Shown here: positions 17,297 through 46,951 of the stretch, piece by piece
Layout of the letters: each line of letters begins with the position of its first letter
How positions within the stretch are numbered: position 1 is the stretch's first letter
DNA from: a virus
DNA length: 46,951 bases
Reading direction: 5' to 3' (one strand)
IMG/VR virus record: IMGVR_UViG_3300021185_002429
Location: 1 to 46,951 of that record
The notes under the pieces: model-generated
Told to the model about the DNA's origin: nothing
Seen by the model: the letters and a program-made list of their open reading frames with translations, nothing else
Databases searched by the model: none
Program-made: the position numbers and the translations under genes

Positions 17297-17863
17297 TTAT
17301 AAGACACCTACTTGATGCATAACATCTATATTATTAACAACTGCAATAGTTAGTAGTCCATTTGCTATTACCATATCATCTTCAGTATATGTATTCCATA
17401 TAATAGTTCCGAATATTAGTTTTAGAGCTAGTATTTCACCTGCTGATGGTTTTTTTCCCAGAATAGGATTTACCTCATAAACGTAAGGACTCTTAAGGCC
17501 GTGATAAGTTGTAAGTGCGTCCATTGAATTAATAAAGATAAAATATGATTTTATGACTACGCCGTTATGGTGTGAAAATTGTAACCCGCTCAGATTTACC
17601 TTTGACTTGTATGTTATCGACTCGAGTAAAGCTTCTTTCTTTACACTTTCCAGCAGTGAACTGTGATAACAACACTCGAACCCCATCATAATTTCTTGTT
17701 TGGCCTTCGAGTCTAGCCGCGAGATTAACGGCATCTCCAATGACGGAATAGTCAAATCGAGATTCTGATCCCATGTTTCCGACGATGCAGTCGCCGGTAT
17801 TGATACCAATGCCAACATCAATCCTAGGAAGACCTTGAGTTTCAAGTTCTTTAATAAGTTCAT
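17297..17863 (-). CDS. DUF5658-like membrane protein overlapping the cyclase gene
   Basis: The C-terminal 85 residues look like a DUF5658-type membrane protein: INSMDALTTYHGL, VNPILG, then two hydrophobic stretches (about 142-156 and 165-177). Before the first span the frame has no ATG, GTG or TTG until M59/M60 (17689/17686), so any normal start lies inside the cyclase gene. The furthest ATG (17863) has AGAGG 6 nt upstream and encodes a signal-peptide-like start (LKVFLGLMLALVSIPATASS). That would be a 299-nt out-of-frame overlap with the cyclase catalytic domain. Start is uncertain; the C-terminal gene is likely real. Confidence 0.5.
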   Translation of the reverse strand: MNLLKNLKLKVFLGLMLALVSIPATASSETWDQNLDLTIPSLEMPLISRLDSKAKQEIMMGFECCYHSSLLESVKKEALLESITYKSKVNLSGLQFSHHNGVVIKSYFIFINSMDALTTYHGLKSPYVYEVNPILGKKPSAGEILALKLIFGTIIWNTYTEDDMVIANGLLTIAVVNNIDVMHQVGVL

Positions 17864-19391
17864 CTGCTGCCTCTAATATTTCTATTGCTGTATCTACGGC
17901 TAATTCCGCATGATTATCACAAGGTAAAGGAGCATTCCAAAATGCCATAATACAATCTCCCATGTACTTGTCTATTGTTCCACCATTCTTTAAAATAATT
18001 TTAGTCATAGTGTCCAAATAATTATTTATAATATTGACAAGCCCTTCCGGGTCATTGTTATTTTTATAGTGTTCTGATATTGGAGTAAATCCTACAATAT
18101 CCATAAATAAGAAAGTCATATCTTTTCTTTCGCCACCAAGTCGTAATAACGATGGGTCTTTCTGTAATAACATAACTTGTCGTGGATCCAAATAAGTTTC
18201 AAACTGTTTCTTAATTTGTTGTCGTAACATATATTGTTTATAGAAGTTATTGAAACTGCCTGAGGTAAAGGTTATTATATATAATATTAATGAATATGTA
18301 AGGTCAAGGAGCACATACCATTTATTCCAAACATAATAAACAGTTACGACTGATCCGAAACAGAAGACCAGAAATCCGATTCCAGAAACCCAAACAGGTG
18401 CCCGATATACTAACAGGACTAGAAGAGCAGCAAGAACTGTCGATACGAGAATTTCTATTAATGCCGTCCAGAGAGGACGTGAAATGGAGCTCTCATCAAG
18501 GACAGTCTGTATCGCAGAAGCCTGAAGTTGATGTGCAGACTGAAGACCAACAGGTGTTGGAATTTGAGAAGCCAGACCCGATGCAGTTAATCCAATCAAG
18601 ACGACTTTCCCTTCAAGATTTGGAAGATCACTACCATACTCTATTTCAGGAAATGAATAGTTAGTATTAATCCAGATTGATCCATTTGGATCAGTAGGTA
18701 TTTGAAATGGTCTTAAAATAATTTCTTCGATACCAGTATCATTTACTTTGACTGTATATGATGGCTTTTGATTTGCTACTCTAATTAATTCTAAAGTAAA
18801 TGAAGGATATAGTTGTTCGTTTATTTGTGATAAAAGTGGTATTCTTCTTACTACTCCATCAACTTCTGGCATACCATTAATTAATCCATGACCCCAAGCA
18901 CCTTGCTCTATTTCTGGTATATTGGTTACTAAACCATCATATTCTATAACCCAATCATTAGGGTCGCCAGTTCCAAAGATTGCAGTTCCAACATATGGAG
19001 CACTTTCACTTCTACCTCGTGGGTCAGCATCTTGTGATAATATAATTCCATTATCTTTTACCCATGACGAGAATACTTCATCTCCACCAAATCTATCATT
19101 CTCAGGGAACATAATAGTAAAACCAATAAGTCCAGCATTTGCATTCCTTAAATCAGAAATCATTTGTGCGAACTGTTGTCTAGGAAATGGCCACTGACCA
19201 TATTTTTCCAGTGCTTCTTCACCTATATTAATTAAAACTATATCTTCGGATTTTTTATCTGGTAGTGATTGGATATATTGATCAAATGTAATTAACCTAA
19301 CCTGTTGAACTATATCGGGATCCGATATACGAATAAATAGACCTAGTGCTATTATTGCTACAGTTGTCCAAATGGACGTAATATATTTCAT
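17565..19391 (-). CDS. CHASE2 sensor-adenylate cyclase (class III)
   Basis: A 608-residue membrane sensor enzyme that would make cAMP. Order: N-terminal span (about 5-20); periplasmic CHASE2 domain (about 25-300, with VLINIGEEALEKYGQWPFPR and GKVVLIGLTA); three spans (about 308-328, 332-352, 358-375); short linker; class III cyclase domain (about 422-595). Catalytic residues look intact: metal Asp431 (FMDIVGFT) and Asp479 (DKYMGD), adenine-selecting Lys475 and Asp547, transition-state Asn556 and Arg560. The K/D pair points to adenylate cyclase. It overlaps the 96-residue gene upstream by TAATG. GC is raised: 59 of 120 bases at 17701-17820 against about one third nearby, suggesting recent transfer. 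Confidence 0.93.
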   Translation of the reverse strand: MKYITSIWTTVAIIALGLFIRISDPDIVQQVRLITFDQYIQSLPDKKSEDIVLINIGEEALEKYGQWPFPRQQFAQMISDLRNANAGLIGFTIMFPENDRFGGDEVFSSWVKDNGIILSQDADPRGRSESAPYVGTAIFGTGDPNDWVIEYDGLVTNIPEIEQGAWGHGLINGMPEVDGVVRRIPLLSQINEQLYPSFTLELIRVANQKPSYTVKVNDTGIEEIILRPFQIPTDPNGSIWINTNYSFPEIEYGSDLPNLEGKVVLIGLTASGLASQIPTPVGLQSAHQLQASAIQTVLDESSISRPLWTALIEILVSTVLAALLVLLVYRAPVWVSGIGFLVFCFGSVVTVYYVWNKWYVLLDLTYSLILYIITFTSGSFNNFYKQYMLRQQIKKQFETYLDPRQVMLLQKDPSLLRLGGERKDMTFLFMDIVGFTPISEHYKNNNDPEGLVNIINNYLDTMTKIILKNGGTIDKYMGDCIMAFWNAPLPCDNHAELAVDTAIEILEAADELIKELETQGLPRIDVGIGINTGDCIVGNMGSESRFDYSVIGDAVNLAARLEGQTRNYDGVRVLLSQFTAGKCKERSFTRVDNIQVKGKSERVTIFTP

Positions 19392-19681
19392 TAATTAAAT
19401 TTCTTTTGTAACCACTTAAAGATTGCGTATATTGATAAACCATAAAACGCAAGAACACTCATAGGCAAAGCGATATACGCTAGTTCCCACGGAGTGAGGA
19501 ATAATATTTCCCAGGTAAAGTTTGCAACGGCTTCTGCATCACCTAATGGTTGGAGTTCAAGCATTTCTGAATCCATTTCAACACCTGCTTCATCCATCAT
19601 AACAATAAGTTCATCGTATGACTCAGTGTCTAAACAGATTTCAAATTCTTCTGGACAATTTCCTTCTCCGCCGTATTCCAT
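19391..19681 (-). CDS. Small membrane protein between curlin-like protein and cyclase
   Basis: 96 residues: an acidic, Met/Glu-rich N-terminal half with two Cys (C9, C16), then a hydrophobic part (about 55-90, WELAYIALPMSVLAFYGLSI) and a basic end (KWLQKKFN). One or two spans. TAATG overlaps on both sides tie it to its neighbours. No family recognised; a partner of the cyclase or of the curlin-like protein is possible. Confidence 0.6.
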   Translation of the reverse strand: MEYGGEGNCPEEFEICLDTESYDELIVMMDEAGVEMDSEMLELQPLGDAEAVANFTWEILFLTPWELAYIALPMSVLAFYGLSIYAIFKWLQKKFN

Positions 19682-20373
19682 TAGTTACCCTGCGAAACAT
19701 TAATTGTACAACCACCTACTGTATAACAATTATTGGTAATAGAATAACTCATATTCGTACTACCTTGTTGTAATAGATTTAATGTTGTTGGTTCGGTTCC
19801 TTGCAATCTTATTTGAGAATTATGATTTGCACTTCCTTTTTGCATGAGGTCTACTGATGAACCATCAGCTGTACCATAAAAATATGCATGAGAATAATGA
19901 GAACCTCCGCCTTCTTGCCATGATTCAATATTAGTATCATCAGCGTGTACATCTAAATTAAGTGTATGAGAACCATGCTGATAAACATCTACTGTATTAT
20001 CGTTACCCCATAGATGTCGACCATAAGTTGCACCATCATATTGTAATACTGTTTCATCATTACCTGTACCATCAATATCTCCACCCCATGATTTACCTGA
20101 GCCCCAATATGATACCCAGGATATAGAATTACCTGTACCATTCTGTGTTAAATCAAATGAATTGCTTGCATGTGCAAATGAAAAATTAACGCTATTACCA
20201 TAACCTATTTGAGTAATATTTAAATTTAAATCATCTCCGCTACCTACTTGTTCTACGTGAATGTGATTATCATCTGTAGGACCTGCGTATAATGGCATTG
20301 CTAAAAAGATACACGCACCCCACGGCAGTATCCAGTATTTAAAAAATTGTTGTTTTATTTTAGTCCAGTTCAT
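19681..20373 (-). CDS. Curlin-repeat secreted protein A
   Basis: 230 residues with an N-terminal signal segment (about 12-30, ILPWGACIFLAMPLYA). The mature part carries repeated Q-x-G-x-x-N units of the curlin type: EQVGSGDDLN, TQIGYGN, TQNGTGN, YQHGSHTLN, MQKGSANHN, QQGSTN and SQGN. Repeats are less regular than in CsgA. A C-terminal Cys pair (NNCYTVGGC) could form a disulfide. It is the likely cargo of the CsgG pore encoded nearby. It has its own late box 5 nt before the ATG. Amyloid formation is inferred from the repeat class. Confidence 0.78.
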   Translation of the reverse strand: MNWTKIKQQFFKYWILPWGACIFLAMPLYAGPTDDNHIHVEQVGSGDDLNLNITQIGYGNSVNFSFAHASNSFDLTQNGTGNSISWVSYWGSGKSWGGDIDGTGNDETVLQYDGATYGRHLWGNDNTVDVYQHGSHTLNLDVHADDTNIESWQEGGGSHYSHAYFYGTADGSSVDLMQKGSANHNSQIRLQGTEPTTLNLLQQGSTNMSYSITNNCYTVGGCTINVSQGN

Positions 20374-20378
20374 ACTTC

Positions 20379-20386
20379 TATTTATA
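20379..20386 (-). promoter_or_regulatory. Internal late promoter box, leaderless configuration
   Basis: Exact TATAAATA, 5 nt before the ATG at 20373. It would give a separate late transcript for the curlin-like protein, the small membrane protein and the cyclase. Confidence 0.72.
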
Positions 20387-21487
20387 CTAGTTTTGATTTA
20401 TAATTACCATAATATCTTCGCCATCATTACCTGTAATAATACCTTGATATCCAGGAGTTGTTGTGTCTAATGTAAAGCTACTACCTGCAGCAAATTCAAT
20501 TTCTATTAGTCCATTTACATTACGATATAATACTAAATTACCATCTCGTAAAAATACATTAAATTGTGATTCATCATTTAAACCTCTTCTTGCACCTTTA
20601 ATATCAAACTCGCCCAATGTATCAAATAAATCACCAGAATCAACTATTGCCAAAAAGTCTAATAAAAACTCAACATCTAATTCATCAATATCAAGTTCAC
20701 TAAATTCGTCCAACTCATCTTCTGCTAATTCATCTTCTTCTAATTCAGTAAATTCTAAGAAGTCGATATCAAGTAATCCTTGGTCTTCGTTCTGTTCGTC
20801 CTTAAGTTCTTCCTCTATTCTTTGTTTTACTTCTGCCGGTGGATTTACAATAAACATATTATCAATTAAGGCTGGTGTAATACCAGTAATTACAGTTGAA
20901 GATGTCGGAGGACTATCTAAAGTAGTTACCATAGTTGCTGCATAAGCCTGATCAAGTGTTACAGTACCTGCCGAATTAGATACTTCAATCACACCTGATG
21001 GATTACCTTTATCATCTGGTAGCAAAATAACAAGGCTTCTTCCTAATTCATCTATTGTTGTAGTAAAATCAGTTCCTCTTACAGCAATCGTAGCAGTAGG
21101 AGTTTCTATCTTTATGTTTGCGTTATTAACTAACCCTAATTTACCAGATGCAAATCTTGCAGTTCCCATTGCCATCTTTAATGACATTTTGGATAAATTT
21201 GGATTAGGGTCGTAATATATCTCGTCTATTAAAACGAGTGAGTGTTCTTTAAGTTGTAGTTCTGCCTTATCTAAAAATTCTATTAACATACGACCTTTGG
21301 CAGTTTGGGCTTGGTCGTATAGTTCTATTTGTTCTGTTTGAATTGCTTCTTTATCGCGTAGTATAGAATTTACGCCGGAAGATTCTCTAACTTCACCAAT
21401 AGGGTTAGCAAAACTAACCCCACTGATGAGTAGTAAAAGACTAGCTGTCGTTACCGACGTCTTTTTGATTAAGTTGAATAATTGCAT
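20387..21487 (-). CDS. FecR-domain periplasmic/surface protein
   Basis: 366 residues: signal peptide (about 1-27, ending GVSFA), then a FecR domain (about 28-180) with RMLIEFLDKAELQLKEHSLV and the diagnostic IKIETPTATIAVRGTDFTTT. A strongly acidic linker follows (about 225-290, many E/D with L) and a beta-rich C-terminal domain (about 300-366, LYRNVNGLIEIEFAAGSSF). In bacteria FecR-domain proteins are often encoded next to CHASE2 cyclases (general knowledge), so a sensor-partner role is plausible. The start overlaps the second curlin-like gene by 47 nt; no later ATG precedes the signal peptide. Confidence 0.85.
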   Translation of the reverse strand: MQLFNLIKKTSVTTASLLLLISGVSFANPIGEVRESSGVNSILRDKEAIQTEQIELYDQAQTAKGRMLIEFLDKAELQLKEHSLVLIDEIYYDPNPNLSKMSLKMAMGTARFASGKLGLVNNANIKIETPTATIAVRGTDFTTTIDELGRSLVILLPDDKGNPSGVIEVSNSAGTVTLDQAYAATMVTTLDSPPTSSTVITGITPALIDNMFIVNPPAEVKQRIEEELKDEQNEDQGLLDIDFLEFTELEEDELAEDELDEFSELDIDELDVEFLLDFLAIVDSGDLFDTLGEFDIKGARRGLNDESQFNVFLRDGNLVLYRNVNGLIEIEFAAGSSFTLDTTTPGYQGIITGNDGEDIMVIINQN

Positions 21488-22175
21488 TGTCTGATGTAAC
21501 TGTTAATACAATATTTGCATTAGGTGTTGCACAACCACCGCCTGAAGCAGCACATGTACCAGATATTTGATTAATATCAACATCTGCAGAATCACCTGTT
21601 AAAGTGAATTCTAAGTTTTGTTCACCATCTTTTTGCAATGTATTAATGTTATTACTATCACCAGTAATTTCAAAATCCCAAATGTTATCGTCTGATTCCC
21701 AGTCGATATCAAAGACATTTGAATTACCAATTAAGATTAAATCTGCATTCAATCTCTCTGCACTTAGACCATAACCTTGATCAATATCAAAAGTGTTTGA
21801 ATCACCTGTAACGTCAAAGTTTATGTCTGAGTCATCTGCACTACCAACGTTACCAATATTCCAATCTATAACATTTGAGTCACCTGTATAGTCAAGCTTA
21901 TAGGTTGAACTATCTGCTTTAACTGGACCAAATAATATATTTTGATTACCAGCGAAATCCAAATCAAATTCTAAGCTAGAACCTGTAATTGCCATTACAG
22001 AACCTGACCCACTTGAAAAGTTATCTCCACCAATTTTGTTACCAAAACCGATTTGATCAATATACAATTTAAGTGTGTCACCAGATTGTGTGATTTTAAT
22101 TTCGTTATCATCAGTGGCTTGTGCAAAAACGAACGATGTCGACAATAGCAATGCTATACTTAAAAGTTTATTCAT
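21441..22175 (-). CDS. Curlin-repeat secreted protein B
   Basis: 244 residues with a clear signal peptide (MNKLLSIALLLSTSFVFAQA). The mature protein repeats TGDSN-type units (97, 123, 171, 193; variants GNSN at 150 and AGNQN at 75) followed by alternating hydrophobic residues, and it has Q-x-G motifs near the N-terminus (TQSGD, DQIGFGN). It shares with protein A the start DDN-x-I-x-I-x-Q-x-G, a QIGxGN motif and a Cys pair near the C-terminus (GTCAASGGGC), so the two are probably paralogues. It overlaps csgG by 8 nt. Probable pore cargo. Confidence 0.75.
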   Translation of the reverse strand: MNKLLSIALLLSTSFVFAQATDDNEIKITQSGDTLKLYIDQIGFGNKIGGDNFSSGSGSVMAITGSSLEFDLDFAGNQNILFGPVKADSSTYKLDYTGDSNVIDWNIGNVGSADDSDINFDVTGDSNTFDIDQGYGLSAERLNADLILIGNSNVFDIDWESDDNIWDFEITGDSNNINTLQKDGEQNLEFTLTGDSADVDINQISGTCAASGGGCATPNANIVLTVTSDNAIIQLNQKDVGNDS

Positions 22176-23124
22176 TTTCGTTTACCTCTTCCTTTAATGG
22201 ATGTTTTTCGTTTTTACCATCAACTTGATGGGGGTGACGATGTCCATCCTCAATTATCCAAAGACCTCTATCATGTCCTTGGTATATTAGTTCAAGTACG
22301 GCAGCCTCAATAGCTGTTCGTACCGCGTATGTCACGGACTCATTATTACCCACTCCGTCCTCATATTCTACTAGGGTAGTACTATTATCAACAAATCTGA
22401 AAATATCTCCACTACCACCATAACTAAGGATTGTTTTCTTAGCTTGGACATTCAATAATACTTCACCTGTAAGAACTGAAACAGCTCTTACAGATACGGT
22501 GACGACATCTTGTTGATATCGTTTACTTTTACCAATACCCAATAGCCGTGCGCCTCGGCCTCCTGACTGAATATTAGTATCATATCCAATAATTCCACCT
22601 TCCATAATAATTCCAGCGAATAGGAGTGGATTTAATGGTTGCGGACCACCATCGCCCGCAAATTCTTGTCTTGCACTTCTGATTATCTGACGTTCTCTTA
22701 CCAGATGATCAATGCCTTGTCTTTCTACTACTCTAAACCAGGTTCCTCCACCCGCCGTTTTAAGAGCATCTATTAATAATTCTGTACCACCTTGTGTAGT
22801 GGCTGTAGAGAAATCAGCAATACCTTCTCTTGATTTTCTCTGTCCTGTTTTATCTATAAAATTATATACTGCGACTACTGGTCTTTCCTTTGCTGGTGGT
22901 AAGTCCAATAATTCAATATATGAAGGAAGTCTTATTGCTTCTGCTTCTTCTACACAGATATAAGAATGCCTTACTGTTTTTTCAATTCGTGCAATTGCAT
23001 TTGGACCTACATAAGGATCATCAAATGTAATCTCTTTACATTCTTGTGGTTCGTCTGACCAAACTGGAGACGATGATTCATTCATTAGTCCTAAGACTAA
23101 TAGTAATGCTATAAATGCTTCCAT
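22168..23124 (-). CDS. csgG: Curli secretion pore CsgG
   Basis: CsgG forms the nonameric outer-membrane channel that exports curli subunits. The homology is plain: RPVVAVYNFIDKTGQRKSRE, DFSTATTQGGTELLIDALK, then GGIIGYDTNIQSGGRGARLL and a C-terminal GHDRGLWIIED, parallel to E. coli VAVYNFSDQTGQ, NFSTAVTQGATAMLVDALK, GYESNVKSGGVGAR and GIDRGLWDL. The N-terminus is unusual: a weakly charged signal (MEAFIALLLVLGL), no lipobox cysteine, and about 55 extra residues with two Cys before the core. It is followed by a His-rich, charged tail. It lies 5 nt after csgF. Confidence 0.95.
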   Translation of the reverse strand: MEAFIALLLVLGLMNESSSPVWSDEPQECKEITFDDPYVGPNAIARIEKTVRHSYICVEEAEAIRLPSYIELLDLPPAKERPVVAVYNFIDKTGQRKSREGIADFSTATTQGGTELLIDALKTAGGGTWFRVVERQGIDHLVRERQIIRSARQEFAGDGGPQPLNPLLFAGIIMEGGIIGYDTNIQSGGRGARLLGIGKSKRYQQDVVTVSVRAVSVLTGEVLLNVQAKKTILSYGGSGDIFRFVDNSTTLVEYEDGVGNNESVTYAVRTAIEAAVLELIYQGHDRGLWIIEDGHRHPHQVDGKNEKHPLKEEVNENE

Positions 23125-23129
23125 TTTAT

Positions 23130-23636
23130 TTAACCCCCATCAGGGTCTTGACCAAAGTTACCTGTTCCTACTGGTATTTCAATAACAGTTGTAGTCCCAT
23201 CGGAATCAACAATTGTCATTTTAATATATTCTGATCCATCAGCATTCGTTATGACTTCATATGTTACTGTATTGCCTTCTAATACAAATGAACCATATCT
23301 TACTGACCCATCATTACTAAACATTGATTCTACTAATTGTTTAGACATTTGAGCGTAAATTCTTGATTCTAAGTTTCGAATGAACTTAGCCATTGTTGTG
23401 TTTTCTGCATCTCTTTCAGCGGCCTTTCTTGCAGCTTCCATAGCATCTTTTATTGCTTTCTTTCTGCTGTGTTCTTGATTCTCAATTGTTAAATAATGAG
23501 CACCTGTTCCCTGGCCACTAAAGGAAGGATTTTTAAATTTATGTGTAATATCTGCTGCAGCAACTTCAGGGGAAATTGCCAATACACTTATCATGAATAA
23601 TATAATAAGTACAGATAATTCAAGTCTATCTTTCAT
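23130..23636 (-). CDS. csgF: Curli assembly factor CsgF
   Basis: CsgF binds the CsgG pore mouth and narrows it, and guides subunit nucleation. From the ATG at 23636 (168 residues) the protein begins with a good signal peptide (about 1-28) and then ADITHKFKNPSFSGQGTG, which matches the conserved mature N-terminus of CsgF (FRNPNFGG type) that inserts into CsgG. The C-terminal strands (KMTIVDSDGTTTVIEIPVG) parallel the end of E. coli CsgF. A basic helix (about 55-75, SRKKAIKDAMEAARKAAERD) is an insertion. The longer start at 23675 would overlap the upstream gene and mask the signal peptide. Confidence 0.88.
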   Translation of the reverse strand: MKDRLELSVLIILFMISVLAISPEVAAADITHKFKNPSFSGQGTGAHYLTIENQEHSRKKAIKDAMEAARKAAERDAENTTMAKFIRNLESRIYAQMSKQLVESMFSNDGSVRYGSFVLEGNTVTYEVITNADGSEYIKMTIVDSDGTTTVIEIPVGTGNFGQDPDGG

Positions 23637-23901
23637 CTTTTCCATTACCTCTATTCTTTCGCTTTTTCTTTTCATTTTCTCTGTATTCTAAAACTACATT
23701 TACTTTTTGTTGTAATCTTATCAAATCTTGATCCAACATCCTTGTCTGATCAATAACTCTTATAAGAGCCATGTGCATTTCATCTAACTTCGGCTCTATA
23801 TGTTCTCCAATATACCACCATACATAATATATAAAATATCCTAAACCTACGGACATCACAATTGGAAACCCGTAGTCAGAAACTAATTGACCTACATCCA
23901 T
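23626..23901 (-). CDS. Small membrane protein with coiled coil, csg-linked (1)
   Basis: 91 residues: one N-terminal span (about 11-33, GFPIVMSVGLGYFIYYVWWY), then a heptad-like helix and a very basic tail (KKKRKNRGNGKDER). It has the same plan as the next gene upstream, so they may be a duplicated pair. The position between an endolysin and csgF allows a holin-like or curli-accessory role; neither is shown. Confidence 0.6.
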   Translation of the reverse strand: MDVGQLVSDYGFPIVMSVGLGYFIYYVWWYIGEHIEPKLDEMHMALIRVIDQTRMLDQDLIRLQQKVNVVLEYRENEKKKRKNRGNGKDER

Positions 23902-24197
23902 TAGTCTCTCCTAGTATCTATTTTGCCGTCCTCAATAAAGTTTTCTGCACGTGCAATTCTATCAGTATCTGGTCTTAAATCTAAGGCCGAAGATACTAAC
24001 AAATCAATTTTTATCATTTCATTACTCATTGTTCGTGCTCTATTCTCCAAACTCTGAGCAAATATAGTTAAGGTGTTTATCTTATCTACTATTCCTTCTA
24101 GTATCTGTTTGATTACTAAAAAAATAAAGAATCCCATAACTAAAGACCCAGCAATTGGAGCACCTACATCCGCAATGAGTGTAAATATACTCTCCAT
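23901..24197 (-). CDS. Small membrane protein with coiled coil, csg-linked (2)
   Basis: 98 residues: N-terminal span (about 8-30, ADVGAPIAGSLVMGFFIFLV) followed by a coiled-coil-like helix (about 35-70) and a charged tail. First gene of the csg operon. Its ATG lies 5 nt after a late box and has no Shine-Dalgarno. Function unknown; a holin candidate by plan only. Confidence 0.6.
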   Translation of the reverse strand: MESIFTLIADVGAPIAGSLVMGFFIFLVIKQILEGIVDKINTLTIFAQSLENRARTMSNEMIKIDLLVSSALDLRPDTDRIARAENFIEDGKIDTRRD

Positions 24198-36331: not shown

Positions 36332-38644
36332 TTATATAGTACAGCTATCACAATCTTCATCATCAACAATTTGTTCAGTACCTGTATAATATGGGTGATG
36401 TTCGTCCTCTTTCATTTCACCCGCACCGTCGTAAGTATTAAAGTAATACAATTGTTTTAATCCAAATTTATAAGCTGTAATTAAGTCCTGTATCATGACA
36501 GACATAGGTATTTTATTGTCTTCATAATGCTCAGGGTTGTAAGAAGTGTTTACGCTGATACCTTGATCAACATATTTTTGTAATATACCACATATTTTTA
36601 AATAACCCTCAGGTGATTTTTGATCCCATAATAAGTCATACTTATTTTTAAGATGATGATAACCTGGGACGACTTGTGGTAATACTCCGTCCTTACTTTG
36701 TTTATATGATACCAGAGCTCTAGGTGGCTCGATACCATTCGTACTATTAGAAATTTGTGCACTTGTTTCCGCCGGCATTAATGCCATCAGAGTACTGTTC
36801 CTAATTCCAGTAGTTTTAAGTTGAGTTCTCAACTCGTCCCAAGGAAGTCGTTCAGTATTCTCTATTAAATTATCTATTGCACTCTTATATGTAGTATTTG
36901 GAGTTGCTCCACTGGCGTATTTTGTCTCATTATTTTTAGGTATTTTACCTTTTTCTTCTGCAAGGTTTGCTGAGGCTTTAATAAGATAGTAACTCCATGC
37001 CTCTGCATACTCATCTACTGTTTCGAATGCGGATTCATTATATTTAAGTCCACGTTTGGCGAGGAAGTATGCGAGATTAATAATACCGATTCCCAATGGT
37101 CTACGATTCTTCGTCCCATTTTCTGCTGCTGCAACTGGATAGTCTTGATAATCAAGAAGTTCATCAAGAGCACGAACAGACAAATCGCAATACTTTTCAA
37201 ACTCGGCCGGGTCATTGATTAAACCCCAATTGATTGCTGATAGAGTACATAAAGATATTTCTCCTGTGTGGTCATCATATGATTCTAATGGAGTAGTAGG
37301 TAAATCAATTTCACAACATAAGTTACTCATTCTAATAGGAGCAACTTTAGGGTCAAATGATCCATGTTCATTTGCATGATCAACATTCATAACATAGATT
37401 CTTCCAGTGTCCTTTCTTTCTGTAAGTAATTTCTGGAATACTTCTAATGCTGGTAATGTTTTCTTTCTAATACTATATGCCCTTTCATATTTTTCATATA
37501 GTTCTTGGAACTTTTCTTGGTCGTCATAGAATGATTCATATAAATCTGGTACATCATTAGGGTCAAAGAAAGTAATATTACCACCAGTTAGTAACCTCTC
37601 GTACATTAACTTGTTTAACTGAAACGCATAGTCCATGTGGCGAACTCTTGTTTCTTCAGTACCCTTATTGTTTTTTAATACTACCAAATCCTCAAACTCA
37701 TAATGCCAGACTGGTAGATACACAGTCGCGGCTCCTCCACGTACACCTCCCTGAGAACAGCTCTTTACAGCACTTTGAAAATATTTGAGGAATGGTATTA
37801 AACCTGTATGAACAACTGATCCGTCTCCTACTTTGGCACCTACTCCTCTAATTGAACCAGCACCGATTCCTATACCTGCTTTTTTACTTATATACTTAAC
37901 AATACTAGTAGAAGTAGCATTAATACTATCAAGGGAATCGCCAGACTCAATAAGGACACAAGAACTAAATTGTCGAGTAGGCGTTCGTACTCCTGCCATA
38001 ATTGGAGTAGGTAGTGATATATAAAATTGAGAAATCGCATCGTAATAATCCTTAACATATTTTATTCTTGTATCTTTTGGGTAATCTGAAAATAAAGTTG
38101 CTGATACCATCATATAAAGCATTTGAGGAGTTTCGTAATGTTCCTTAGTTCTTCTATCTTGAACTAAATACTTACCTCTAAATTGTTCCATACCTGCATA
38201 GGTAAATGAATCATCTCGTTCGTGTTTGATATAAGAATTTAAATCATGGATTTCATCAGGTGTATATTTGTTCAGTATTACTGGATCATATACTCCCTGT
38301 TCAATATTCCTGTCAATTAATTCTTTTAGTGGCCAAGGTTCATAATCACCATATACTTCTTTACGAAGTTTATACGATACTAACCTTGCGGCGACAAATT
38401 GGTAGTTTGGTGTCTGTTCTGATATAAGTTCAGCAGCACTTTTAATAAGTAATTCATGTATATCATATGCTGGTATTTTATCAAAGAGTTGAATATTAGC
38501 CTTCAACTCAATTTCAGACATTGAAACCCCTGTGATATCGGCAACGGCCCATTCTAAAACTTTATGTACTTTATCTAAGTCAAAGTCTTGAATATCCCCG
38601 TTACGCTTAGTAACCCTTATGGCCATATTATTGTTTTCCATCAT
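36332..38644 (-). CDS. nrdA: Ribonucleotide reductase class Ia large subunit NrdA
   Basis: 770 residues (E. coli 761). N-terminal ATP-cone (RVTKRNGDIQDFDLDKVHKV), catalytic barrel with QFSSCVLIESGDSLDSINAT, RPLGIGIINLAYFLAKRG and MALMPAETSAQISNSTNGIE, and a C-terminal CxxC-type redox tail (DCDSCTI). It makes dNTPs for replication. Early promoter 30 nt upstream. The start could also be ATG 38641 or 38626. Confidence 0.97.
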   Translation of the reverse strand: MMENNNMAIRVTKRNGDIQDFDLDKVHKVLEWAVADITGVSMSEIELKANIQLFDKIPAYDIHELLIKSAAELISEQTPNYQFVAARLVSYKLRKEVYGDYEPWPLKELIDRNIEQGVYDPVILNKYTPDEIHDLNSYIKHERDDSFTYAGMEQFRGKYLVQDRRTKEHYETPQMLYMMVSATLFSDYPKDTRIKYVKDYYDAISQFYISLPTPIMAGVRTPTRQFSSCVLIESGDSLDSINATSTSIVKYISKKAGIGIGAGSIRGVGAKVGDGSVVHTGLIPFLKYFQSAVKSCSQGGVRGGAATVYLPVWHYEFEDLVVLKNNKGTEETRVRHMDYAFQLNKLMYERLLTGGNITFFDPNDVPDLYESFYDDQEKFQELYEKYERAYSIRKKTLPALEVFQKLLTERKDTGRIYVMNVDHANEHGSFDPKVAPIRMSNLCCEIDLPTTPLESYDDHTGEISLCTLSAINWGLINDPAEFEKYCDLSVRALDELLDYQDYPVAAAENGTKNRRPLGIGIINLAYFLAKRGLKYNESAFETVDEYAEAWSYYLIKASANLAEEKGKIPKNNETKYASGATPNTTYKSAIDNLIENTERLPWDELRTQLKTTGIRNSTLMALMPAETSAQISNSTNGIEPPRALVSYKQSKDGVLPQVVPGYHHLKNKYDLLWDQKSPEGYLKICGILQKYVDQGISVNTSYNPEHYEDNKIPMSVMIQDLITAYKFGLKQLYYFNTYDGAGEMKEDEHHPYYTGTEQIVDDEDCDSCTI

Positions 38645-40889: not shown

Positions 40890-41141
40890 CTAACCTTTTG
40901 TCTTAATACTATCCAAATTTTTCTTATTGGCCTTTTCTTGTTCTTTTAGTTTTTTAGATTCTCTACGCTGTAAAATTCTATTTACAAATGCCTTACCTTC
41001 TTTAGTTCTGGCATCGTACTTTATTTTTTCTTTATGTTTTTTGTGCTTATCTTTAGTCATCATATCAGATGGTAAAGATACACCACCAGCACCTACAGAG
41101 TTTGCAGCTGCATCTTCCCACATATCTTTAAATTTTTTCAT
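40890..41141 (-). CDS. Small basic protein with capsid-targeting-like leader
   Basis: 83 residues, starting MKKFKDMWEDAAANSVGAGG, then very basic (KDKHKKHKEKIKYDARTKEG). The leader resembles the MKxFxxxxxE start shared by the head-gene cluster at 42132-46264, so it may be packaged in the head. ATGA-type overlap with the gene upstream. Confidence 0.58.
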   Translation of the reverse strand: MKKFKDMWEDAAANSVGAGGVSLPSDMMTKDKHKKHKEKIKYDARTKEGKAFVNRILQRRESKKLKEQEKANKKNLDSIKTKG

Positions 41142-41728
41142 CTTTTTATATCCCTACTAGTTATATAAATGTCATGTTGAGTTCTAAGGTGGGTAACCTT
41201 ATAAATGTTTTGATAAAAACAATTATCAACAGGACTATTATTCACCCCTACTCTGACTTTGGTTTTAGCCTCTGCAATTATTTCTCCAGTTACTGGAGAT
41301 GCAACATCATTAACTAACCAATAATCACCTTCATTTAAAGTTCCATCGTCCTTTTGGAACCATGTTGATTCTTCTAACTGATCAACATTATCATCATCAA
41401 TAAACTTTTGCATTACCTTTCTAATTTGATTCTCACTCATTCCAGTTTCTTCTTTAATAAGAAACAATGCAGTTGCGTAAGAAGCCAACTTTGATTTTCC
41501 AAATGGTAATTTATTCAGTAACCTTTTTAGGTTGAATACTAACCTATGGAAAACAGTATAAGATGCCTTTTCATCACCTGATGTTAATTCTCTGGCCTTT
41601 TTTAATACCTTTCCGTTCTCGTCAATAATACCGAGCTCAAATGCCTTCATTTTTTCCCAAGGTGTAGTTAACATCTTTAGAAATCTAAAGGCATAAAACA
41701 TATCACCTGTTCTTGATATTAATCCCAT
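41138..41728 (-). CDS. Conserved T4-like phage protein
   Basis: 196 residues with a conserved core: FYAFRFLKMLTTPWEKMKAF, FHRLVFNLKRLLNKLPFGKS and ALFLIKEETGMSENQIRK. C-terminal part is strand-rich. It recurs in marine T4-like phages together with the next gene. Function unknown; helical, basic centre. Confidence 0.65.
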   Translation of the reverse strand: MGLISRTGDMFYAFRFLKMLTTPWEKMKAFELGIIDENGKVLKKARELTSGDEKASYTVFHRLVFNLKRLLNKLPFGKSKLASYATALFLIKEETGMSENQIRKVMQKFIDDDNVDQLEESTWFQKDDGTLNEGDYWLVNDVASPVTGEIIAEAKTKVRVGVNNSPVDNCFYQNIYKVTHLRTQHDIYITSRDIKR

Positions 41729-42099
41729 TATAGGTTCCTTAATCTATCTACTATTACTGGATCCAAAGGTACATCTACCTTTTCATCTTCTGGTAAATAG
41801 TTTAAATATACCAAGAAAGGCTTTATATATGTCCAATGGTCCTTTTCTACTTTATACCAAATCATTCTATTGGCAGGACCTATTCCAAATACATTAAAAA
41901 TAACGATTAAGTGATTAAGTATTAACCTTTCTTGTAGGTCATCACTTGCCTCATATCGACTTAATAGTCTTTTAATATATTTAAATCTATTTAAGTCCTC
42001 TTTGAATTCATCTACATCAATACATTCAGTATTGTTATAGTTATTCATTGCGAAGAGCTTAAAATTCTTCTGATTTAGTTCGTCAAATATTTTCATCAT
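41728..42099 (-). CDS. Conserved T4-like phage protein (DUF7207-like)
   Basis: 123 residues: MKIFDELNQKNFKLFAMNNY, then DEFKEDLNRFKYIKRLLSRY and LNHLIVIFNVFGIGPANRMI. It recurs in T4-like phages beside the previous gene, suggesting a joint role. No catalytic motif seen. Two ATGs in a row leave the start uncertain by one residue. Confidence 0.65.
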   Translation of the reverse strand: MMKIFDELNQKNFKLFAMNNYNNTECIDVDEFKEDLNRFKYIKRLLSRYEASDDLQERLILNHLIVIFNVFGIGPANRMIWYKVEKDHWTYIKPFLVYLNYLPEDEKVDVPLDPVIVDRLRNL

Positions 42100-42131
42100 A
42101 TATTATATATACTCCTTATGGAGATATAATC

Positions 42132-42629
42132 TTAACTTTCTAATCTGAACTCTGTTTGTTTATTTAAGAAAACAACTTCCCATTTATCATCACTACCAAT
42201 AAAGCAGTAATCAATTTTTCCTTTATTTGGTCCATCAATTATTTTCCAAATCCAACATACGTGTCCGAAAGGGACCTTTTTACCATCAGATTCTGCTGCA
42301 ATAGCTTGGAAAAATGTTCGCATTTTATCTTGTGCATTCCAGTATCTACCATATCGAATATCATCAGATTTCCAAACTTCGGAAAATTTCTTCTGAGCAT
42401 CTTTATAATCTTTGGCGATAACATGTCTTGCAGTAGCTGGTTTGCCGTATGGTACATTACCTAAACCTAATACTTGTACTTTACCGCCATAAACATTCTC
42501 ATCTTTTACGCCATAATTTCTTGCCGATGAACCACTATGAAATACATTGAGTTTAAGTCCAGGTTTTAGTTTTGCAACTGTAACTTTTCCCTCGGTGAGT
42601 TCTTGTCTGATTTTAAAAAAGTCTTTCAT
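42132..42629 (-). CDS. Head-associated protein with cleavable-type leader (1)
   Basis: 165 residues: leader MKDFFKIRQELTE, with a prohead-protease-like L-T-E/G site at residues 11-13, then a mature beta/alpha domain (GKVQVLGLGNVPYG, ending KWEVVFLNKQTEF). The mature function is unknown. It overlaps the next gene upstream by 1 nt. The leader is compared with T4 IPIII (MKTYQEFIAE/A). Confidence 0.62.
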   Translation of the reverse strand: MKDFFKIRQELTEGKVTVAKLKPGLKLNVFHSGSSARNYGVKDENVYGGKVQVLGLGNVPYGKPATARHVIAKDYKDAQKKFSEVWKSDDIRYGRYWNAQDKMRTFFQAIAAESDGKKVPFGHVCWIWKIIDGPNKGKIDYCFIGSDDKWEVVFLNKQTEFRLES

Positions 42630-43027
42630 TATTTGTTTTTCTTATTAAATTCGGCTTTGGCCCTTTTTAACTTATCTTTTAAGTCAGAAAGTTTTTCATC
42701 TTCCAATTGACTTGCTTTATCATCCAAATCATGTTGTTGAGCATCGTAATCTGAACCATCATCACCTTTATCTTCAGCATCTCTTGCCTTCTGATAAAGT
42801 TTGTCCGCTTGATCCCTAAGTTTTTGGATTTGGTTTTCAACTGAATCTATTTGATTTTGTATTTGCTTAACTTTATTATCATCAGATTGTTTAGCAGAAC
42901 CTGTATTAGGTGCTTTATTATCAGCACCGGTTGCCTTACGAATACCAGAACTATCTGCTCCTGCAGATGGAATTCTATGTCCTAGAAATTCGTTTAATCC
43001 TTCTCTTAATTTAAAAAAATCTTTCAT
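42629..43027 (-). CDS. Head-associated coiled-coil protein with cleavable-type leader (2)
   Basis: 132 residues: leader MKDFFKLREGLNE (L-N-E at 11-13, near-identical to the neighbour), a Gly/Ser/Asn linker, then a long charged coiled coil (about 50-130). The plan fits a scaffold or internal head protein. Function inferred from leader and composition. Confidence 0.6.
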   Translation of the reverse strand: MKDFFKLREGLNEFLGHRIPSAGADSSGIRKATGADNKAPNTGSAKQSDDNKVKQIQNQIDSVENQIQKLRDQADKLYQKARDAEDKGDDGSDYDAQQHDLDDKASQLEDEKLSDLKDKLKRAKAEFNKKNK

Positions 43028-43028
43028 T

Positions 43029-44090
43029 TTAGTTTATGTCCTTTTGAACATCTGCTAAAGTTTTGGCATCTGAATCTGCTCCAAGATGCATTTTAGCATA
43101 TGAAATTAAATCTTCTTCAGAACCAGTCATAACGGCTTTTACGCCTCCCATCTGACTTGATCCTTTAGACATAATTTTAATACGACCTCTTAAACCTTTT
43201 TTCTTAGGCTCATTAACAGAATCCTTATTTTCACCATCATCTGTTTTACCAGTAAAACCATCAACTTTTAATGTAGCTTCTGATACTGATTCTTTTTGTA
43301 AGTCCCTTATTTTATCTTTTAGGTCCTGAATCTTCTGGCCAGCTTTAAAGTCCAACTCAAGATAAAATTCTTCTTTGTCATCAAACTCGACTTTATCGAT
43401 TTTACCAGCTTTAAATTCATCTTCTTTTTTACCTATCTGGACAAAATATCTCTTTTGATCCAGTTCAAGTGATTTAATTCTGTCTTTAGCCTTTTGAATC
43501 TTTTCAGCTTTCTTTCTCTTATCGCCTGCCAAATCAGTACCAGCTACTTTATCAATACCTCTTTTTACACCCTGTGCAGCTTTTCTTATAACATTTTCAT
43601 TTGTAGCCTTATAGTTCTTATCTACATAATTGAAAAACTCTTTTCTTTTCTCTTTGTCAAGTTCTTGTGGTGATTCAACTCCATACTTTTTAAGAGCAGA
43701 AGCAAAGAACTCTTTGTACTTCTGTTCATCAGTAAGTTGTCTTTTTGAATCTTCTTTAGTTACTGTTCCATCAGGGTTTTCGCCAGACTTCTTAACTACG
43801 TGCTTGTCCTTAAATTCTTTTTCGCCTTTTGCTCTTGGCTCTTCAGGACTTTCCTTTACTGGTTTTTCATGAGTATAACCTTTCTTAGAAAGTTCTTCAT
43901 GGTCTTTCTCATTATTGGCCACAACTTTTGCACCAGTTTCTGGGTGAAACATATCATGTGGATATTTGGCTTCTTCGCCATATCCAGACTTGATTTTTTT
44001 CTTGCCGTAACCTTCTTTTTTTACTTTACCCTCTAGTACATCACTTACGGCGTTAGCAATGCTTTGGGTTTCTGCGTCATTAAATTTCAT
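43029..44090 (-). CDS. Probable prohead core/scaffold-type protein
   Basis: 353 residues: N-terminal MKFNDAETQSIANAVSDVLE/G (V-L-E at 18-20), segment YPHDMFHPETGAKVVANNEK, a conserved block with LTDEQKYKEFFASALKKYGV, a long Lys/Glu helix region (about 190-275), a possible second site VSEA, and a basic C-terminal domain. High charge and helices suit a core protein processed by the prohead protease. Assignment is inferred. Confidence 0.6.
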   Translation of the reverse strand: MKFNDAETQSIANAVSDVLEGKVKKEGYGKKKIKSGYGEEAKYPHDMFHPETGAKVVANNEKDHEELSKKGYTHEKPVKESPEEPRAKGEKEFKDKHVVKKSGENPDGTVTKEDSKRQLTDEQKYKEFFASALKKYGVESPQELDKEKRKEFFNYVDKNYKATNENVIRKAAQGVKRGIDKVAGTDLAGDKRKKAEKIQKAKDRIKSLELDQKRYFVQIGKKEDEFKAGKIDKVEFDDKEEFYLELDFKAGQKIQDLKDKIRDLQKESVSEATLKVDGFTGKTDDGENKDSVNEPKKKGLRGRIKIMSKGSSQMGGVKAVMTGSEEDLISYAKMHLGADSDAKTLADVQKDIN

Positions 44091-44100
44091 ATTAGTTCTC

Positions 44101-44400
44101 CTATTGTATGAAAAGCATTCCTGTGATACCTGTTGCCGCAGCCGCGATAACTACCCAGAAAATTTTATTAATTATATTTACAGTCGAAGCATTTTGCCTG
44201 ACTAATTCTTCTAACTTGTCTACTCTATTTATAATAGTTAGTAATTGAGCTGATTGTTGTTTACCAAATTGTGTGATAGTATGTATTTTTTCTTCTGCCC
44301 TAGCCAAAGAGATAATAGCCTCGGACATAGCATCTAGTTTTTTTTCTATACTATCTAATCTTCTTGATTGATCAGCTCTTTGTTCTTGTGCTGTTGCCAT
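44101..44400 (-). CDS. Coiled-coil protein with C-terminal membrane span (DUF7201-like)
   Basis: 99 residues: heptad-rich helix (about 10-75, RLDSIEKKLDAMSEAIISLA) and one C-terminal span (about 79-97, IFWVVIAAAATGITGMLFI). Tail-anchored plan. It recurs in phages; a holin or tail-anchor role is possible. It overlaps the gene upstream by 29 nt. Confidence 0.6.
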   Translation of the reverse strand: MATAQEQRADQSRRLDSIEKKLDAMSEAIISLARAEEKIHTITQFGKQQSAQLLTIINRVDKLEELVRQNASTVNIINKIFWVVIAAAATGITGMLFIQ

Positions 44401-44665
44401 GTTTATAAACCCTGCATTTTAGTGGGGTAACCCCTTTAATTAATCTATGGTATTCCTGTTGTTTAATATCAAATACCATTCCCTTTTTAAGAAGCCATGG
44501 TAAACAATTTTCTATTTGAAATTGCCAACCTTCGCCTTCTAACACTTCTATTTCTCTATCTTCCATATCACGATGCCAAACATATTCGGCGTCATGTTTA
44601 TGTGGATCAAACCATCTGATCACACCATCTTCCCAATACGGTTTACCAAAAGTAATTTCCACCAC
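44372..44665 (-). CDS. Conserved phage protein (GTG start)
   Basis: 97 residues from GTG 44665. Trp-rich: ITFGKPYWEDGVIRWFDPHK, DAEYVWHRDMEDREIEVLEG and ENCLPWLLKKGMVF. It recurs next to the zinc-like DUF5872 protein upstream. Function unknown. Confidence 0.55.
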   Translation of the reverse strand: MVEITFGKPYWEDGVIRWFDPHKHDAEYVWHRDMEDREIEVLEGEGWQFQIENCLPWLLKKGMVFDIKQQEYHRLIKGVTPLKCRVYKHGNSTRTKS

Positions 44666-45005
44666 CTTTTAACCCCAATTGTTTCGCATACTTAGGTAAT
44701 CTACATGCCCAATAACCTGGTGATAACTTGTCCTTTTTAGTATCACAGTTATGTCTGGCCGCAAAGTTCCTTGCTGCATCTCTGTTATTAATTTTCGCAC
44801 TTAAACCTGTTGTATCTCCAAACTGAACCTTCTTAATATTACCAGTTTGAGGATTCTTAACATAAACAACATATTTCTTTTTACCACCTCTTTTAGGACT
44901 ATTTAATTCTGGTTCAGCTTCTTCTACCATAGGTTGTTCTAAAGGTACGTGAGAACCTTCATATAATCCAAATCTTTCTTCAATGTGATCCAAAAAACTA
45001 TGCAT
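44643..45005 (-). CDS. Conserved head-region protein (DUF5872-like)
   Basis: 120 residues: leader MHSFLDHIEERFGLYE/G (possible protease site L-Y-E/G), acidic linker, then a conserved basic domain KKYVVYVKNPQTGNIKKVQF, ARNFAARHNCDTKKDKLSPG and YWACRLPKYAKQLG. This domain is widespread in marine phages near head genes. Possibly nucleic-acid binding. Overlaps the kinase gene by 8 nt. Confidence 0.65.
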   Translation of the reverse strand: MHSFLDHIEERFGLYEGSHVPLEQPMVEEAEPELNSPKRGGKKKYVVYVKNPQTGNIKKVQFGDTTGLSAKINNRDAARNFAARHNCDTKKDKLSPGYWACRLPKYAKQLGLKGGGNYFW

Positions 45006-45678
45006 TTTTTTTCTTATCTCTCTGTTGTTTTATCCATTTCATTGCAATTGCATTCTCAGGTGGTCTTTTAGACCAATTCATAATATCTTTATATGCGTCC
45101 ATTGTTGCTGCATCTATATTAGAGTCTACAGAATTATCCACAACTGTCATTCTACTTCTAAATAATGCTTGAAATTTACCAATGTTCTTTTGAACATCAT
45201 TCCACATCTTTTCAACTACCTTATCTGGTAGTACTCTAGGTCGCATTCTATTTCTTTCTAATGCAGTATCTAAATCTGTATTAACAAAAATCATATGAAC
45301 TGCATAACCAAGTTCTCTAGTTTTTTGAACTTGGGCCTTAATCTTGTTATAATCTTTACCAGTTCCATCAATTACAATACCCATTCTATTTTTTAATGCA
45401 ATATCTAATCGTTTTCCTGTTAAGGCCTTTGCAGTAGCCCTTACAGCCTGACCTGGTTCTGAAAAGATATCCTCTGGTGTAGTTCCCATACCAGCCCTTT
45501 TCAAACCTTTTTCAAAGGCATCATCAGAATTAATTAATCTAAATCCCAAGGCCTTTAAAGATGTCTTTCCTACTACAAACGATTTACCAGAACCTGGTCC
45601 ACCTGCTAAGAAAACTGCCTTAAAAATTGCCGGGTCTTCTACTCCTTCTATTACTGTTAAATAATCTTTAAATTTCAT
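44998..45678 (-). CDS. P-loop kinase (zeta-toxin-like) with head leader
   Basis: 226 residues. Leader MKFKDYLTVIE/G, then a P-loop kinase domain: Walker A GGPGSGKS (26-33), acidic motif LINSDDAFE, IVIDGTGKDYNKI (Walker B-like), and RNRMRPRVLPDKVVEKMW with the lid arginines. The order resembles zeta-toxin and polynucleotide-kinase-type enzymes. The leader implies packaging into the head and delivery with DNA. Substrate unknown. Confidence 0.78.
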   Translation of the reverse strand: MKFKDYLTVIEGVEDPAIFKAVFLAGGPGSGKSFVVGKTSLKALGFRLINSDDAFEKGLKRAGMGTTPEDIFSEPGQAVRATAKALTGKRLDIALKNRMGIVIDGTGKDYNKIKAQVQKTRELGYAVHMIFVNTDLDTALERNRMRPRVLPDKVVEKMWNDVQKNIGKFQALFRSRMTVVDNSVDSNIDAATMDAYKDIMNWSKRPPENAIAMKWIKQQRDKKKNA

Positions 45679-46025
45679 TTCTTTAACTTATACATAAAGG
45701 CTTTACCCTTTTGTTGTCTTTTTCTAGTAACACCCATATTAACATGTTTGGCAACATTATTTAACTGCATTAATTTCTTTTCATCATCTTTGGCAAGTCC
45801 ATCAGTAAAGTATGTTTGTAGTTGATTTAAAATTGCCTTTACTATACCACTATTACTTGCGACTAAAGCCTCATCAACATTTTCATCTTTTCTTGCTCTT
45901 TTAAAATCTTGTTTTGTCGGAGCACCTTTAGAGCCAGGTTTACGCATAGGTCTACCTTCTTTTCTCTTTTTGTGGATATTAGCCCAAAGGCCAGCGCCCT
46001 CTTGATGTTCCTTAAATGATTTCAT
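45675..46025 (-). CDS. Conserved basic head-region protein
   Basis: 116 residues: MKSFKEHQEGAGLWANIHKK, then RKEGRPMRKPGSKGAPTKQD, a motif common in marine phages. Very basic, with a helical C-terminal domain. It shares the MKSF leader start but lacks a clear L-x-E site. ATGA overlap downstream. Possibly a DNA-condensing internal protein. Confidence 0.62.
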   Translation of the reverse strand: MKSFKEHQEGAGLWANIHKKRKEGRPMRKPGSKGAPTKQDFKRARKDENVDEALVASNSGIVKAILNQLQTYFTDGLAKDDEKKLMQLNNVAKHVNMGVTRKRQQKGKAFMYKLKK

Positions 46026-46264
46026 TATTTTAATCTTCCTCTTAGAATATCATCTAAATTACTGTCCAACCAATCAGTAAAATCATCTGGATCATCTGTT
46101 TTAATTTCTCCGTTATCAAAGGCCCATGAATATAAATCATCTTCAGCCTTTTTAGATAATTCTAAATTACCAGTTCTTTTAGCTTTTTGCAATTCTCGTT
46201 TATGTTTACGAAGAATGTCACGCATCTTAGCCTCGTTTAAAAGATATTCGTTAAAAGACTTCAT
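46025..46264 (-). CDS. Small head-region protein with cleavable-type leader (3)
   Basis: 79 residues: leader MKSFNEYLLNE/A (L-N-E at 9-11), basic helix (MRDILRKHKRELQKAKRTGN) and an acidic C-terminus (KTDDPDDFTDWLDSNLDD). The mature part is a small helical protein; role unknown. Confidence 0.6.
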   Translation of the reverse strand: MKSFNEYLLNEAKMRDILRKHKRELQKAKRTGNLELSKKAEDDLYSWAFDNGEIKTDDPDDFTDWLDSNLDDILRGRLK

Positions 46265-46951
46265 TACTTTCTACCTCTTTTTTCTTTATCTAATAAAGCC
46301 ATAATAGACCTTAATGTGGCTTTATCATCATCTGAAATTCTATCCAGTTGTCTTTGTTTTTTAATCTTCTCCAATGACTTTGCCCATGCAGCATCTGATT
46401 CATGTACTGTTTTTTCTGGTTCATCAGAACCAATATGTGCACCTTTTTTCTTTAAAGATTTGGAAGCTGCGGTATCTTCTTTATATGCTCTGAGAAGTTT
46501 CTTTGCTTTCATTCTATCATGGTATTTAAATTTATAAAGCTTTCCATCTTTGTTATCTTTTAGAGTATATCCATCTCCAATCTGGCCCAGCTTGATAATT
46601 GTACCTTCTCTTTTATTACCATTATTATCATAGAAGTCTACTACTGTTCCAACTTTAATTGATTTTCTTGTTTCTGCACCCATACCTTTTCTTGCAAGGG
46701 TTCTATAGTTTTCTAATACAGCTTCTTCTGTTTTATAAACACCCTTACCATTATCCCAATGGTCATAAAATTTCATAATAGCATTGGCCAATGAAGTGTT
46801 ATTAACAACACCAAAATTACTAACAACGTGGTTATATAAATATGGAATATTCTTTTCGGCTTGTTTTACTGTCATGGCTTTTCTAGGGTCACCATACTTT
46901 CCACCCATAGACTTATAAAATTTTTCTATATCTTTTTCAATCTTTTTATCA
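46264..46951 (-). CDS. Head-region protein, N-terminus outside window (partial)
   Basis: The frame stays open from the ATG at 46908 back to the window edge (DKKIEKDIEKFYKSMGGKYG), so the real start is probably beyond 46951. It contains a helical N-terminal part (NNTSLANAIMKFYDHWDNGK), a small SH3-like strand segment (VGTVVDFYDNNGNKREGTII) and a charged C-terminal helix ending KEKRGRK. Function unknown; it is co-transcribed with the leader-bearing head genes. Confidence 0.6.
   Translation of the reverse strand, partial: DKKIEKDIEKFYKSMGGKYGDPRKAMTVKQAEKNIPYLYNHVVSNFGVVNNTSLANAIMKFYDHWDNGKGVYKTEEAVLENYRTLARKGMGAETRKSIKVGTVVDFYDNNGNKREGTIIKLGQIGDGYTLKDNKDGKLYKFKYHDRMKAKKLLRAYKEDTAASKSLKKKGAHIGSDEPEKTVHESDAAWAKSLEKIKKQRQLDRISDDDKATLRSIMALLDKEKRGRK

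Follow-up and report, generated by a model that had tools for sequence, protein, structure and literature searches.

We find that the genes at positions 40890-46951 of a 46,951-base virus record (IMG/VR IMGVR_UViG_3300021185_002429, analysed over its whole length and referred to here as the window) very probably encode proteins that travel in the phage head. The gene content of the window matches T4-like myoviruses, and we put a probability of about 0.83 on the reading that this block specifies cargo packaged in the head of a marine T4-like myovirus, marked by a leader of the capsid-targeting sequence (CTS) type and processed by gp21-type cleavage; for the window phage itself, targeting, cleavage and injection are inferred. 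A preliminary description of the same DNA had proposed a T4-type capsid-targeting propeptide on unrelated proteins, cut after aliphatic-x-Glu. This core of the proposal is borne out by the restriction of the leader to certain families, by the junction of all 82 kinases compared, by sites in capsid proteins and by the virions of cousin phages. Its label 'head genes' was wrong, because the block, lying between the gp41 helicase gene and gp61/nrdA and made up of accessory enzymes and small proteins, is accessory and not a head module.

The N-termini quoted in the preliminary description are all present in the window as starts of minus-strand open reading frames (ORFs). The motif search that it proposed, MKxF-x(5,8)-[LIV]xE, misses T4 IPIII, and therefore wider patterns were used together with shuffled and family controls. 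With these, the strict motif MK(x)[FYW]x3-8[LIVMF]xE was found in 4 of the 78 window ORFs, compared with a mean of 0.30 in 200 shuffles (standard deviation 0.56, maximum 3). We then considered about 80 related marine contigs, in which proteins of roughly 20 unrelated families bear the leader, and clustered 2,919 ORFs from kinase-relative loci and reference phages. Among families of four or more members, leader matches numbered 434 where 64 were expected, and they fell into few families, each with 35-76% of its members matching, while the interleaved neighbour families (those of the window ORFs at 44372, 44101, 41138 and 40481) and nrdA scored 0%. Restricted as it is to certain families, with none of their interleaved neighbours carrying it, the leader is not a product of chance. 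Tighter clustering resolved 25 leader-carrying families with unrelated bodies. The prohead protease belongs to them, as do DUF6267 (with a KxDG motif), a lysine/arginine-rich family and a family of 460-aa proteins; one of these 25 at least, which is UvsY-like, looks like a false positive. In five large contigs the leader stands on 38 of 143 ORFs within the gp41-nrdA block and on 13 of 612 outside it, three of the latter being the prohead protease (p=2.5e-19, a value that overstates independence because the genomes are related). This propeptide, common to otherwise unrelated proteins, is 9-20 residues long.

Processing of the T4 leader is prevented by Asp at position 10. In T4, residues 4 and 7 of the leader are needed for targeting and residues 8 and 10 for processing, and gp21 cuts after L/I-x-E (PMC9026906). 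When marine leaders were chosen for F/Y/L at position 4, the frequency of F/Y/W/H at position 7 was 0.32 as opposed to 0.11, with hydrophobic residues enriched as well. The exact aromatic spacing of T4 is restricted to a subset of leaders, with one in the window.

The clearest junction is that of the P-loop kinase encoded at 44998-45678 (predicted cuts are marked here by a slash). Across 82 kinases, P1 is Glu and P1' is Gly in every copy, and P3 is Leu in 48, Ile in 28, Met in three, Val in two and Phe in one, while leader sequence and length vary. Some relatives carry MKSFKTFIAE/G, nearly identical to MKTYQEFIAE/A of T4, and distant homologues in marine metagenome bins have the same arrangement (MKYFHELQE/G, MKSYTDLQE/G). 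AlphaFold predicts an ordered kinase body, with residues 1-9 at low confidence; the fold is nearest to polynucleotide kinase, and shikimate kinase and adenylate kinase folds also match. Within the 82 bodies, [LIVM]xE[GASD] sites occur 4 times against 47 expected (observed/expected 0.08), as if internal cutting were selected against. A general depletion of the cleavage motif in mature bodies was not upheld, the ratio being 1.61 for leader ORFs and weak, at 0.69, for DUF6267.

Published virion proteomes of cousin phages link the leader to packaging. A putative cytidylyltransferase, T4-GC190, was detected in the S-SM1 virion (PMC3037559), and its sequence (gp190) starts MKKFSAFLNE/A; no leader is present on T4-GC15, which was likewise newly detected in the S-SM1 virion. 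The S-CREM2 virion proteome lists non-structural proteins (Table 3 of PMC10665884) that in its authors' view may be encapsidated or may just have co-purified. Among them are a S-adenosylmethionine (SAM) hydrolase starting MKDFDSFLEE, an APH-like kinase starting MKRFDAFLTE and a cytidylyltransferase starting MKNFSSFLTE/A, and further virion proteins start MKDLHSFLTE and MQTFSMFFSE. To put numbers on this, we derived a pattern from positions 4, 7, 8 and 10 of the T4 leader, with Leu also allowed at position 4. In 50 kb of T4 its sole hits were IPII and IPIII, in S-SM1 its sole hit was gp190, and in S-CREM2 it picked out ORFs 6, 13, 136 and 154, plus ORF14, which the ORF finder had missed and which was counted from its annotated start. 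All five S-CREM2 matches are in the virion (p=6e-4; four of four without Leu at position 4, p=0.003), so that S-SM1 and S-CREM2 together give 6/6 carriers in published virion proteomes. A regular expression fixed before S-CREM2 was examined gave 10 matches, 6 of them in the virion, versus 22/185 among non-structural proteins (p=7e-4). S-CRM01 has a matching cluster after gp41/mazG, with MISFDQFLSE, MKKLDQFLTE and MKLFNQFFKE/A. Separately, we observed that a large S-CREM2 virion protein annotated as a Cas9-like nuclease (L136, 7704-10313) shows a leader-like LRFASFMAE/A after a 16-residue extension, its S-CRM01 counterpart having LSLDSFIKE/A.

The processing machinery can be traced in the relatives. 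A gp21-type protease is encoded in the closest relative (L001/G012) and in five others, and in the closest relative it itself begins with the leader-like MKLIAEYIETDLEVIVE. Predicted sites in the capsid protein are MISE/A in the same contig, INE/T, MTE/S and MISE/V in other relatives and FLSE/A in Methylophilales phage Melnitz.

Several bodies also occur fused to one another. The body encoded at 46025-46264 has family members that stand behind a short leader (MKNFKEHTLSE/GKK) or are fused behind other proteins through the junctions ETVEE/GKK, ETISE/GKK, EIKE/GKK and ISE/AK. Of 225 distinct internal junctions, 30% have [LIVMF]xE precisely where the alignment puts the cut, compared with a background of 2%; the figure is 16-19% one residue to either side, where some bodies were mis-sited by the regular expression, and 0-12% elsewhere. 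The kinase, too, is preceded by IME/GVND in one relative (L050) and by LLE/GVHD in another (L157), and in Agrobacterium phage Atu_ph07 it is fused through VTE/GVND to an ADP-ribosyltransferase (ART)-like protein with a YRGM motif. Because bodies also occur fused, with junctions that keep the cleavage motif, cargo polyproteins are suggested. It is conceivable, at slightly less than even odds, that marine T4-like phages place interchangeable effector bodies behind one leader, separated by [LIVM]xE/[GA], and that these are cut by the protease in the capsid and injected together. As a side observation, tandem ART-like (YRGM) proteins of Atu_ph07 (L127, 1429-7608) start MRWEQLTE or MKWNDLNE, a leader-like run.

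Several points weigh against packaging and cleavage. The forms MKSFKEHQE (ORF 45675) and MKKFKDMWE (ORF 40890), which the preliminary description listed as weaker, are present, but their P3 is not Leu or Ile, and their cleavage is less sure because that residue is His and Met, respectively. Some orthologues, such as DUF6267 of S-SM1 and S-CRM01, have no clear leader, and a late-promoter signal (TATAAATA) looked for at the block was not found. No gp21-type protease was found on the window contig, although the peptidase S77 search is uninformative, because its controls found nothing either. Of 10 S-CREM2 proteins matched by looser patterns, 4 were not seen in virions, co-purification is not excludable by virion mass spectrometry according to the S-CREM2 authors (PMC10665884), and virion support comes from cousins of the window phage.

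Among other explanations, the one that fares best, though we consider it unlikely, is that packaging and trimming do take place but the proteins work inside the head only, as core or scaffold-like assembly proteins and not as injected effectors. Deletion of T4 IPIII affects head assembly (PMC9026906) and a small size, basic character or coiled coil marks several bodies (42629, 40890), whereas many carriers are enzymes, namely the P-loop kinase, cytidylyltransferase, KxDG DUF6267 and the SAM hydrolase and APH-like kinase of S-CREM2. Very improbable is an uncut docking tag for replisome, membrane or tail, with Glu-Gly marking the edge of a folded domain: the genes do adjoin replication genes and cleavage was not observed directly, but [LIVM]xE/[GA] recurs at internal fusion junctions and in capsid proteins, and carriers of the exact T4 form are present in virions. 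AT-rich phage genes often have MK- starts and acidic residues, but that these produced the pattern by chance is barely credible even for a short motif with only 1-4 strict matches per genome, given its absence from interleaved families of the same genomes, its enrichment inside the block of these related, non-independent genomes and the coincidence of T4, S-SM1 and S-CREM2 matches with known virion proteins.

For head-packaged cargo, we propose that an N-terminal propeptide of 9-20 residues, roughly MK-[ST]-F-K-E-[hydrophobic or aromatic]...[LIVM]-x-E, would send each protein into the prohead core, where a gp21-type prohead protease would cut after Glu and release a mature body usually beginning with Gly, Ala, Ser or Asp, which would presumably be ejected with the DNA. 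Some ORFs may be small polyproteins, with one leader and two or more bodies delimited by further [LIVM]xE/[GA] sites. In relatives, the cargo partners include a CTP_transf_like enzyme and the KxDG (ligase-like) DUF6267 protein, for which a structure model was set aside as too poor in quality. The cargo probably carries out reactions on nucleotides or nucleic acids at an early stage of infection; a plausible role would be to counter host defence early on, by repair of RNA/DNA ends or by chemistry involving NAD. In T4, internal proteins act as inhibitors of type IV restriction enzymes (PMC12373910).

The mechanism is known from T4; new are the wide range of carriers, the conservation of the block and the junctions of the apparent polyproteins. 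Like the gp21-cut CTS of T4 IPI, IPII and IPIII, the marine leader is a short propeptide on unrelated proteins with an MK.[FY] start and an aliphatic-x-Glu cut, but its carriers are far more numerous and include several enzymes, and it also differs in its length range, in the location of the genes between gp41 and nrdA and in the fused bodies with motif junctions. The T4 Alt ADP-ribosyltransferase is likewise a head-packaged enzyme trimmed by gp21 (PMC9026906), whereas the cargo of the window block consists of a kinase and unassigned proteins, with no ART found there. In the giant phages phiKZ and SPN3US, a gp21-related protease similarly trims many inner-body or ejection proteins after a Glu, and these are ejected; the phiKZ site, however, is S/A-x-E, and a short shared MKxF leader was not described in the literature searched. 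Polyvalent proteins (Iyer et al. 2017, PMC5512222), too, are effectors of several domains that are believed to accompany phage DNA into the cell, but they are attached to domains of the MuF or portal type, while the proteins here are united by their short leaders and [LIVM]xE junctions. None of the open-access papers searched connects these marine phages with a capsid-targeting leader, subscription papers and outside preprints not being covered. The leader offers a sequence rule for the head contents of T4-like phages of abundant marine bacteria and a possible explanation for the enzymes repeatedly found in cyanophage virion proteomics; it also makes dozens of 'hypothetical proteins' encoded between gp41 and nrdA candidates for injected effectors that can be tested, and predicts in-capsid processing of fused cargo.

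Turning to the genomic setting, the block is accessory and sits beside replication genes. The equivalent block is flanked by gp41 helicase and gp61/nrdA in Pelagibacter phage HTVC008M, S-SM1 and large IMG/VR relatives; in Melnitz most of it is in this place and the kinase is located elsewhere. The window kinase is 50% identical to a Melnitz protein and 45% identical to an HTVC008M protein (both phages belong to the Kyanoviridae), and at least 257 relatives of it occur in viral contigs.

Table. Cargo-block ORFs and nrdA in the window, with candidate leaders (slash, predicted cut).
Feature	Position	Strand	Leader or remark
ORF open at contig end, start beyond contig	46264..46950	minus	homologues begin MKLKDLREK / MKFKQLREK
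79-aa basic protein	46025..46264	minus	MKSFNEYLLNE/A at 46232-46264
116-aa protein	45675..46025	minus	weak leader MKSFKEHQE/G at 45999-46025
P-loop kinase (AAA_33 / zeta-toxin-like)	44998..45678	minus	MKFKDYLTVIE/G at 45646-45678
120-aa protein (phrog_7595)	44643..45005	minus	leader-like MHSFLDHIEERFGLYE/G at 44958-45005
353-aa protein	43029..44090	minus	candidate 20-residue propeptide ending VLE/G at 44031-44090; internal SVSE/A
132-aa coiled-coil-like protein	42629..43027	minus	MKDFFKLRE/G or MKDFFKLREGLNE/F, 42989-43027
165-aa protein	42132..42629	minus	MKDFFKIRQELTE/G at 42591-42629
83-aa lysine-rich protein	40890..41141	minus	leader-like MKKFKDMWE/DAA at 41115-41141
nrdA	36332-38644	minus	cargo block upstream as far as contig end, all minus strand

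Candidates beyond those of the preliminary description are the leader of the 43029-44090 ORF, which is possibly a polyprotein to judge by its sites, internal sites in ORFs 45675, 43029 and 46264, and the 46264 ORF itself. The latter has an internal cleavage-like site, TVHE/SDAAW, and the counterpart of its SDAAWAKSLE body in one relative (L012) sits after a leader, MKSFKDIRTKNVEE/SSAAWAKSLE. ORF 45675 is arranged as leader, GLWANIHKKRKEG module and internal site NVDE/ALVA, and in another relative (L013) the ALVA body has its own leader, MKGFNEHQYADE/ALVA. The GLWANIHKKRKEG module lies within three residues after aliphatic-x-Glu in only 31 of 49 cases. A 34-residue GLWANIHKKRKEGRPMRKPGSKGAPT module (window 45675-46025; L187-L266) occurs in many unrelated marine phage proteins, nearly always a few residues after Glu.

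ORF 44643 is the only one in the window that matches the T4-position pattern, and its relatives keep MHxFLEHIEERFG[LI]YEG; those of the 40890 protein keep MKxFKD[MVI]WEDAA, and relatives of the 42132 protein have the leaders MKDFFEIREDQLNE/A and MKSFNKWEQEQLDE/G. MKDFFK leaders are common to the adjacent genes 42132 and 42629, the bodies of which are unrelated, and DNA likeness between the two leaders is limited to about the first 20 bases; a recent duplication is possible. For 42629, the N-terminus is as previously described but a cut at LRE/G after residue 9 is likelier than the proposed LNE/F.

Two further observations concern the wider surroundings. Kinase-bearing phage contigs (L141-L157) occur in bacterial or archaeal genome bins labelled Rhodobacteraceae, Thaumarchaeota, Flavobacteriaceae and others, and are probably mis-binned phage and not host genes. 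Elsewhere in the window, positions 17565-24197 hold a curli-like module of curlin-repeat proteins with FecR-like and cyclase-like ORFs; it matches a curli module that is annotated at the same relative place in HTVC008M and Melnitz.

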